DNA from: Parasphaerochaeta coccoides DSM 17374
Lineage (GTDB): Bacteria; Spirochaetota; Spirochaetia; Sphaerochaetales; Sphaerochaetaceae
Length of the DNA stretch: 64,000 nucleotides
Assembly (NCBI RefSeq): GCF_000208385.1
Contig: NC_015436.1
Span: forward strand, 496,001 to 560,000
Direction: 5' to 3'
Numbering within the stretch: the first letter of the stretch is position 1; each line of letters opens with the position of its first letter. Shown here one piece after another: positions 26,227-28,553 of this stretch. The notes below the pieces were generated by a model, which was given only the letters and a program-made list of their open reading frames with translations, ran no database searches and was not told the origin of the DNA. Both the position numbers and the translations under genes were made by a program.

Positions 26227-28425
26227 TCAGAAAATTACCTGCACGGGCGTGTTTGTGTTGACTATAGTGTTATCACCCAGTTGACCATAATAGTTGTATC
26301 CTGTCCCCCAGAGCGTGCCGTCCTTCTTCAGGATTATCGTATGGTATTCTCCGACGGAGACCGCCGCGACATCAGTCATGAACCCGCTATCATCAGTAGT
26401 ATCCTTGACCCGCACGGGAGTAGTTCTGGTGATCCCAGTGCCGTCACCCAGTTGACCCTGATAGTTGTATCCTGTCGCCCAGAGCGTGCCGTCTTTCTTC
26501 ACAATCATCGTGTGATTCAGTCCGGCGGAGACTTCCTTGACATCAATCATGAAGTCGTTGGCGGCGGTACTGGCCTTGACCTGCACGGGCGTGCTTTTGT
26601 TGTTCACTATACCCGAAGTGCCGACACCCAGCTGACCATATTCGTTGTATCCAGTCGCCCAGAGCGTCCCGTCATTCTTCAGGATCATCGTGTGTGCGTA
26701 TCCGGCGAAGACAGCCGCGACATCAGTCATGAACCCGGAAATATCGGTATCATCCTTGACCTGCACAGGCGTGCTTTTGTTGTTCGGATCGCCTGAAGTA
26801 CCATCGCCCAGTTGACCATAGTTGTTCCGTCCAGTCGCCCAGAGCGTCCCGTCATTCTTCAGGATCAACGTGTGATTGTATCTGGCGGAGACGGCCGCGA
26901 CATCAGTCATGAACCCACCAGCATCCTCCTTGACCTGCACGGGCGTGCTTTTGTTGTTCGAATCGCCTGAAGTACCATCGCCCAGTTGACCATAGTTGTT
27001 CCGTCCAGTCGCCCAGAGCGTGCCGTCCTTCTTCAGGATCATCGTATGCTCCCGTCCGGCGGAGACAGCCGCGACATCAGTCATGAAGTCGTTGGGAGTG
27101 GTACTTGCCTTGACCCGCACGGGAGTAGTTCTGCGGTACGTAGTGCCGTCACCCAGTTGACCATAGGTGTTCTGTCCAGTCGCCCAGAGCGTGCCGTCCT
27201 TCTTCAGGATCATCGTGTGATCACCTCCAGCGGAGACGGCCTTGACACCAGTCATTTTCACGGAACCATTGGTAGAATCCCAGACCTGCACGGGCGTGCT
27301 TCTGTTGGTAGTATTACCGACACCCTGTTGGCCATAATTGTTGCGTCCAGTCGCCCAGAGCGTCCCGTCCGTCTTCAGGATCATCGTGTGATCACCTCCG
27401 GCGGAGACTGACTTGACTCCCAGCTTGACAGCAGGTGCGTTTATGCCATCTCCGGTGTCCCAGTCCTTTATCTCAATCTGGATAGCGGCAACGGCGACTT
27501 CATCATCAGACGTATTGAGCGTCATGTTGTAGACATGTTGCTTGCCTTTGTCAAAGTGAATCAGATGCTTGTCTCCCTCAGCTACAGCACCTGTGGTACT
27601 TGGCTTCCAGGTGTATGTACCAGCGCCAGCACCACCGGTCAGGATAAACTCCAGGCTCACGTTATCCAGGGCAAACGTGTTATCCGTAGGTATCAGCACT
27701 GCCTCGAACCTGCGCTTACCCTCGGCCCTTTCCGTGGTCGTAAGCGTGTCGGAAATGTCCTTCATGACAATAGACTCAATGACACTGGCAGCATCCAAGG
27801 TTCCGTCATTCAGGTTGATTGCGCTCTGCGTGTTCAAGCCTCTGACCGTAGCAGTAAATCCACCGGTGGCATCATTGATAGCCACAGCATCAACGGTCGT
27901 GCTGGGAGAGATGTTGACAATCAGACGGGAGAGCATATGGTCAAGCTTCAGATGCACCGTTGAGGTATTGTTCTGTACGTTGTCGGTGCGTCCCCACAGG
28001 AAGTCGGCCGTCCCGGTATCCTGTTCTCCGGAACCCGGATAGATATTTATGGGTAGAGCCGTGGCATCAGTGATGGATGATGCATAGGGATAATAGGCGA
28101 TGAAGTCAAAATACGTACTGACAGAATTGGAGATATCATCCCACTTCAAGGTATCACCAGCGGTAGCAGGAGTGAAGCCGGAAGTCTGGAAGGCTGTGTC
28201 AGCCGTATAGAGTTTGTTTGCACGTTCTGAGGCGGCAGTGGCTGCCAGGGCATCATGAGCTACCATATAGATGCCGACTTCATCATCGGCTTGCCATTCG
28301 GACTCTGCCGTGGCCTTGCGTCCGATTTCCGAGGTGAAGCGTACTTCGTTGGTATGTGAAACATTCAGCTTGTTGTCGCATGAAACAAAGGTGATAAGAA
28401 GCATCAGGATGGTCAGGAAGACCAT
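26227..28425 (-). CDS. Surface lipoprotein B: fimbrillin-like domain plus RCC1-type repeats
   Basis: About 732 residues from the internal ATG at 28425, which would leave only one residue before the hydrophobic core MVFLTILMLLITFVSC: too short a signal peptide. The better start is the ATG at 28481 behind GGAGAAAGGA, out of frame here because of the (AG)20 tract. Lipobox FVSC, then a fimbrillin-like region of about 300 residues very close to lipoprotein A, then about seven RCC1 repeats of about 50 residues (AGxxHTMILKKDGTLWATGxNxYGQLGDG) which should form a beta-propeller. Likely a surface binding protein; ligand unknown. Confidence 0.85.
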   Translation of the reverse strand: MVFLTILMLLITFVSCDNKLNVSHTNEVRFTSEIGRKATAESEWQADDEVGIYMVAHDALAATAASERANKLYTADTAFQTSGFTPATAGDTLKWDDISNSVSTYFDFIAYYPYASSITDATALPINIYPGSGEQDTGTADFLWGRTDNVQNNTSTVHLKLDHMLSRLIVNISPSTTVDAVAINDATGGFTATVRGLNTQSAINLNDGTLDAASVIESIVMKDISDTLTTTERAEGKRRFEAVLIPTDNTFALDNVSLEFILTGGAGAGTYTWKPSTTGAVAEGDKHLIHFDKGKQHVYNMTLNTSDDEVAVAAIQIEIKDWDTGDGINAPAVKLGVKSVSAGGDHTMILKTDGTLWATGRNNYGQQGVGNTTNRSTPVQVWDSTNGSVKMTGVKAVSAGGDHTMILKKDGTLWATGQNTYGQLGDGTTYRRTTPVRVKASTTPNDFMTDVAAVSAGREHTMILKKDGTLWATGRNNYGQLGDGTSGDSNNKSTPVQVKEDAGGFMTDVAAVSARYNHTLILKNDGTLWATGRNNYGQLGDGTSGDPNNKSTPVQVKDDTDISGFMTDVAAVFAGYAHTMILKNDGTLWATGYNEYGQLGVGTSGIVNNKSTPVQVKASTAANDFMIDVKEVSAGLNHTMIVKKDGTLWATGYNYQGQLGDGTGITRTTPVRVKDTTDDSGFMTDVAAVSVGEYHTIILKKDGTLWGTGYNYYGQLGDNTIVNTNTPVQVIF

Positions 28426-28439
28426 GACGCTTAGTTTAG

Positions 28440-28479
28440 TCTCTCTCTCTCTCTCTCTCTCTCTCTCTCTCTCTCTCTC
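28440..28479. repeat. (TC)20 microsatellite in the 5' end of lipoprotein B
   Basis: Forty bases of pure TC on the plus strand. On the coding strand it directly follows ATG (28481-28479) with ribosome site AAAGGA nine bases upstream; fourteen bases separate it from the internal ATG at 28425. A third frame is also open upstream: from an unlikely ATG at 28533, without ribosome site, translation would run in frame through the tract as Glu-Arg repeats. Confidence 0.97.
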
Positions 28480-28553
28480 ATAGTATCTTTTCCTTTCTCC
28501 ATGAAGAAGATGATGACATGCCAGCTTACGCATATGGTAGTAATTAATAAAAT

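Follow-up and report, generated by a model that had tools for sequence, protein, structure and literature searches.

The window analysed here is a stretch of 64,000 nucleotides, bases 496001-560000 of a genome that consists of a single contig (2,227,296 bases, 2.23 Mb). On its minus strand it carries two sister lipoprotein genes, referred to here as locus A and locus B, each headed by a GA dinucleotide tract. The features of the two loci are given below in window coordinates.

28583..28632, minus strand: imperfect palindrome TAACCCGAAAGTATTATA...AATAATACCTTTGGGTAA upstream of B, common to the family; probable operator
28554..28559, minus strand: conserved TATACT, -10-like, putative promoter element from the family alignment
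28490..28500, minus strand: GGAGAAAGGAA, purine-rich ribosome-binding site of the upstream ATG of B (duplex energy -6.4 kcal/mol)
28479..28481, minus strand: upstream ATG of lipoprotein B, its probable natural start; with 20 units not in frame
28440..28479, minus strand: (GA)20 dinucleotide tract, (TC)20 on the plus strand, 100% match
28426..28439, minus strand: linker CTAAACTAAGCGTC, between the tract and the internal ATG of locus B
28423-28425, minus strand: internal ATG of locus B, 14 bases past the tract
26227..28425, minus strand: lipoprotein B ORF from the internal ATG, 732 aa, with lipobox, Mfa_like_1 (aa 38-322) and seven RCC1 repeats
18441..18490, minus strand: upstream palindrome at locus A, same as at B
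18277..18336, minus strand: (GA)30 tract of locus A, opened by +1 or -2 units
15329..18259, minus strand: locus A ORF from the internal ATG, 976 aa, with Mfa_like_1 and Flg_new repeats

Read along the minus strand, locus B is AT(GA)20 CTAAACTAAGCGTC ATGGTCTTCCTG, in which ATGGTCTTCCTG begins with the internal ATG and the first G of the tract is the G of the upstream ATG. Since 56 nt (2 mod 3) separate the two ATGs, the upstream ATG is out of frame with the 732-codon ORF, and the sequence confirms the original prediction of a 20-unit ATG-(AG)n arrangement at this distance and phase. Locus B is OFF as sequenced: with 20 units, the upstream ATG leads to a 16-residue peptide, MRERERERERERERLN, followed by a stop. 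Translation of altered tracts gave a stop after 15 residues with one additional unit, and a 752-aa product, M(RE)nTKLSVMVFLTILMLLITFVSC..., with two additional units, which is frame-equivalent to the loss of one. These translations agree with the earlier claim that B would be opened by one unit fewer or two more (19 or 22 units in frame), and the claimed succession of M-(Arg-Glu)n-TKLSV, hydrophobic core and lipobox can be read in the 752-aa translation. Taken with the last A of the tract, the linker reads ACT AAA CTA AGC GTC (TKLSV) in the ON frame, in which it is conserved and open, and it holds TAA stops in both other frames. At locus A the in-frame lengths are 31 or 28 units; A needs +1 (or -2) and B needs -1 (or +2), and the minimal shifts are opposite, as had been proposed.

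Pfam assigns to B an Mfa_like_1 (fimbrillin-like) domain with E = 1.5e-33, then seven RCC1 repeats, and to A an Mfa_like_1 domain with seven Flg_new repeats. Both proteins pass the PF13149 cut-off, with 117 bits (B) and 130 bits (A) versus a curated threshold of 27, and the family profile matched 4k4k, a solved putative cell adhesion protein, in the PDB with E = 1.2e-9. In addition, by examining the ON frame by eye, we recognized the features of a lipoprotein in MRERE...TKLSVMVFLTILMLLITFVSC, namely a charged region, a hydrophobic core and a cysteine lipobox; the -3 residue of the lipobox of B is F, which is not canonical. On sequence grounds, the family proteins are probably secreted, located on the surface and adhesive in role, and the RCC1 or Flg_new C-terminal part would argue for a single adhesin or tip, not a pilus stalk. 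Both genes also contain in-gene tandem repeats, in A at window 15827-17022 (237 bp x 5.1, 94%) and in B at window 26273-27408 (about 171 bp x 6.5, 77%), which could recombine and change the domain number independently of the AG switch.

Twenty-four tracts in one lipoprotein family

Pattern searches of the genome in both registers recovered 24 tracts with at least about 8 GA units, every one of which starts in an ATG at the 5' end of a paralogous lipoprotein gene, with 9-47 AG units after the ATG. A given 17-mer is expected about 0.0003 times genome-wide versus the 24 such tracts observed at ATGs, and chance is therefore excluded. The original prediction had described B as a second switch beside A; the frame switch arrangement at B is real, but the loci number 24, not two. 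Six tracts are in frame (genome positions 72484, 270599, 1707853, 1725574, 1904079 and 2041512) and nine fall in each of the other two frames, which is consistent with random phase, for which one-third would be in frame (p = 0.52).

All 24 genes keep an intact ORF behind the tract (691-976 aa from the internal ATG), and the median dN/dS for OFF-OFF gene pairs is 0.41. The OFF genes are thus not pseudogenes in decay; as judged from these ratios, the gene bodies downstream of the 24 tracts are under purifying selection. The closest paralogues have tracts that differ in length by 2-17 units and 4-13 differences in 300 flanking positions, a comparison made among paralogues and not among alleles of one locus. 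As in contingency loci, the repeat unit is not a multiple of three and its number sets the frame, wrong frames stop promptly, and the tract is more variable than its flanks.

The tract-bearing genes divide into two types of twelve each. Type 1, to which B belongs, has its internal ATG at the hydrophobic core and runs into TAA immediately in the other two frames. Type 2, with locus A among its members, has a passable signal peptide from the internal ATG, and one of its OFF frames terminates shortly beyond this codon, so that initiation in these genes could be leaky or coupled. The argument that a signal peptide from the internal ATG would be poor thus holds for B and 11 others and fails for the locus A type. 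About 18 further paralogues are tractless, and close paralogues total 42.

The palindrome lies about 150 nt upstream and is found at 33 places in the genome with at most one mismatch, 32 of them upstream of located family members and the remaining one at 1428788. Its carriers are the 24 tract-bearing members and nine tractless ones; eight of the latter, which start with GTG, are among the 32, and the ninth tractless GTG-start gene carries the palindrome with two mismatches. It looks like a candidate operator of a common regulon. Two kinds of conserved inverted repeat, ...CCGGCGCACACG...CGCCGG... and AAGTGACCTCC...GGAGGTCACTTTT, recur 3' of the stop codons at many family loci and may be either terminators or part of the duplicated unit.

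Translation start and proposed switching

At B, the anti-SD duplex energy is -6.4 kcal/mol for the upstream ATG and -3.1 kcal/mol for the internal ATG, close to the means of the tract-bearing family (-6.5 and -3.5 kcal/mol, respectively); the background, 41 other ORF starts, has a median of -5.8 kcal/mol. The ribosome site before the upstream ATGs of the family is of the GGAGAAAGG type, and the energy at the internal ATG comes largely from the tract itself. Several tractless paralogues begin ATGAGAGAGAATAAA (MREN...), which amounts to two to three AG units, in frame. The tractless start MNEREPKPSVMVF is also in the same frame as the tract-bearing upstream ATG and, like MREN..., stands at the position equivalent to it; the tractless paralogue at genome 2090569, MNEREPKPSVMVFLTILMLLITFISC, carries the same linker and core, read in the frame of TKLSVMVFLTILMLLITFVSC. 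The stronger anti-SD match and the same-frame start of 2090569 both support the proposal that the upstream ATG is the likelier start, and it is probably the natural start of lipoprotein B. A further in-frame start upstream (ATGCGTAAG...), which would read through the 20 units, was rejected because it has no Shine-Dalgarno match (energy 0). The simplest history of the tract would be the expansion of an existing MRE start.

We consider it highly probable that locus B belongs to a set of 24 contingency loci subject to slipped-strand translational phase variation. Translation would begin at the ATG forming the first letters of the GA tract, and replication slippage would alter the unit number and hence the reading frame. 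One length in three would give M-(Arg-Glu)n-TKLSV with the hydrophobic core and lipobox, and the lipoprotein would be made; the other two frames would run into a TAA stop within about 12 nt past the tract. Lying before the lipobox cysteine, (Arg-Glu)n should be discarded with the signal peptide, which would leave the mature protein independent of tract length and would explain why up to 47 AG units are tolerated. The common upstream palindrome probably adds shared transcriptional control. We infer switching itself at the 24 loci from this arrangement.

Homologues of MutS (genome 682338) and MutL (475604) are both present. We therefore do not ascribe the long tracts to lost mismatch repair; dinucleotide slippage would be partly corrected, and its rate may be moderate. 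A gene with a MutS-type ATPase domain also lies in the window (42019-42561, plus strand; MutS_V E = 1.3e-33, 817-aa open frame); it is a weaker match than the main MutS and is possibly MutS2.

The unit counts could be an assembly error or a mixed-length consensus, in which case the OFF call for B may be wrong. Long dinucleotide tracts are difficult to count with short reads, and the exact counts rest on the assembly. Yet such an error, which we regard as unlikely, touches the count only: 24 tracts of differing length at homologous positions cannot be an artefact.

We give still less credence to the tract being an untranslated leader, with constant synthesis from the internal ATG (28425) and GA repeats that at most alter ribosome access. 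This would accord with the intact internal-ATG ORFs at 24/24 loci regardless of tract length, and with the charged n-region that follows the internal ATG (MNKSSRP...) in the twelve type-2 genes including locus A, whose internal ATG gives MSKSSRPGFVVLTTILMLLVALISC. A plausible signal peptide from the internal ATG in 12 of the 24 genes (A but not B), with re-initiation possible, also speaks against a switch. In contrast, the internal ATG of B gives MVFLTILMLLITFVSC, which lacks a charged n-region, and nothing SD-like precedes this ATG except the tract end, 14 nt away (-3.1 kcal/mol). Moreover, in the tractless 2090569 the same linker is in frame with an upstream start, and it is this linker, between tract and internal ATG, that is conserved and open in the ON frame.

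Very improbable, finally, is a silent archive of out-of-frame copies that feeds segments to expressed copies via gene conversion: about 42 paralogues with mosaic RCC1 segments exist, the tract-bearing ones are mostly out of frame, and an archive would likewise leave ORFs intact, but six different loci and not a single expression site are in frame, every one of the 24 has a ribosome site of its own besides the shared upstream element, and a GA tract at each copy would not be needed.

Chromosomal orientation and origin of the family

The origin is placed near base 1 by dnaA-dnaN-recF, which lie near base 113, and by gyrB-gyrA at the other genome end; the GC skew changes sign at about 712-716 kb. 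The right arm has 13 close paralogues, all on the minus strand, and the left arm has 29, all on the plus strand, so that 42/42 are head-on to the replication fork. Among the remaining ORFs of these stretches, 149 are leading and 90 lagging (about 38% head-on), and the chance of a uniform head-on orientation is about 3e-11, counting only 25 clusters more than 20 kb apart. Distant fimbrillin-like genes at 1469-1471 kb, 1570 kb, 1848 kb, 1997 kb and 2170 kb are on the leading strand. Lagging-strand insertion of the IS200/IS605 type was rejected as the basis of the orientation, since no Y1 transposase was found and tractless members with different upstream regions show the same bias. The head-on placement may be functional, with fork conflict raising GA-tract slippage and surface-domain mutation to yield an orientation-tuned repertoire, or, as a variant, may reflect spread through lagging-strand ssDNA; we offer this tentatively, as a possibility with the balance against it.

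The family N-domain and ATG(AG)9 are absent from 100 other genomes of the bacterial family, and PF13149 is absent from 149 relatives; among 14 control genomes, PF13149 occurs only in Bacteroides. This distribution points to a likely transfer from Bacteroidota, followed by amplification in the organism's own lineage. Other genome contigs, scanned with two short peptide patterns (a weak search), gave no confirmed match.

We rejected the idea that ATG-(AG)n has a wider origin: among 80 loci of other species, a long ORF behind the tract is missing from most, and many are a different thing, (CT)n behind a sigma-54-like promoter on the opposite strand, a motif found at 0/24 family tracts. At 25 of the 80, (CT)n directly follows the sigma-54-like promoter (TTGGCACG-N4-TTGCT). 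The genomes with (CT)n are mostly of termite-gut type and belong to several phyla (Treponema, Deltaproteobacteria, Chitinispirillales and others), and a gene for a lipoprotein or other exported protein often lies about 120-380 nt downstream of the sigma-54-linked repeat, which is possibly a promoter-linked repeat switch spread across phyla.

Relation to known phase-variable systems

In Helicobacter pylori babB, a CT repeat in the 5' coding region undergoes phase variation by slipped-strand mispairing (PMC4552749). Both systems have a dinucleotide repeat near the 5' end of a surface-protein gene whose unit number sets IN or OUT of frame; in babB, ATGAAAAAAACC stands ahead of the CT repeat, and 8 and 11 repeats are among the IN-frame examples. 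Unlike babB, the family tract begins in the start codon, reaches 47 AG units and is found on 24 paralogues, and the fimbrillin-like protein is unrelated. Mycoplasma mycoides mmyCImod, AG10 when ON and AG12 when OFF with activity and western blot support (PMC3498834), shares the AG repeat and the TAA codons ending both other frames, which are conserved in mmyCImod. It differs in being a restriction-modification methyltransferase with an internal tract (nucleotide 320), and no surface lipoprotein. In Candidatus Mycoplasma girerdii, dinucleotide length variants were measured in a natural population (PMC5476646); an expanded class of surface-protein genes has many dinucleotide tracts within or close to its members, as in our family, but the proteins are BspA-like and the organism is another.

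Neisseria opa is similarly a multi-copy surface family whose members switch independently, with fewer copies (11 phase-variable members in one gonococcal strain) and no homology to the family. The opa repeat is a pentamer and the proteins are beta-barrels. Homology to H. pylori Hop or Neisseria Opa was rejected, as Pfam lists no outer-membrane barrel family. The N-terminal domain is shared with the Bacteroidota Mfa_like_1 fimbrillin-like proteins (PF13149; PDB 4k4k, 3ufi), from which the family differs in its spirochaete host, its fusion to RCC1 or Flg_new repeats and the AG switch at the start codon.

The 24-locus system works like babB and the mycoplasma examples but is not homologous to them. 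What is new is a tract that starts in the start codon, within a signal peptide that would be discarded, and that recurs on 24 paralogues of a single family; new as well are the common upstream element and the head-on orientation throughout. A text search of open-licence literature found no paper describing a 24-locus AG system.

Short-repeat phase variation is best known in vertebrate pathogens facing adaptive immunity. The source organism, which we take to be most likely a termite-gut spirochaete and whose host would then lack adaptive immunity, appears to carry 24 independent translational switches in a single amplified adhesin-like family; as many independent ON/OFF switches would allow about 16.8 million combinations. 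The family is a clean system for asking what selects such repertoires, be it phage, protist surfaces or niche competition. The head-on position of all its close paralogues also makes the family a natural case in which to test whether orientation is selected for mutability. If the head-on reading is true, the family would amount to a hypervariable surface repertoire spread over the whole chromosome and tuned through gene orientation.
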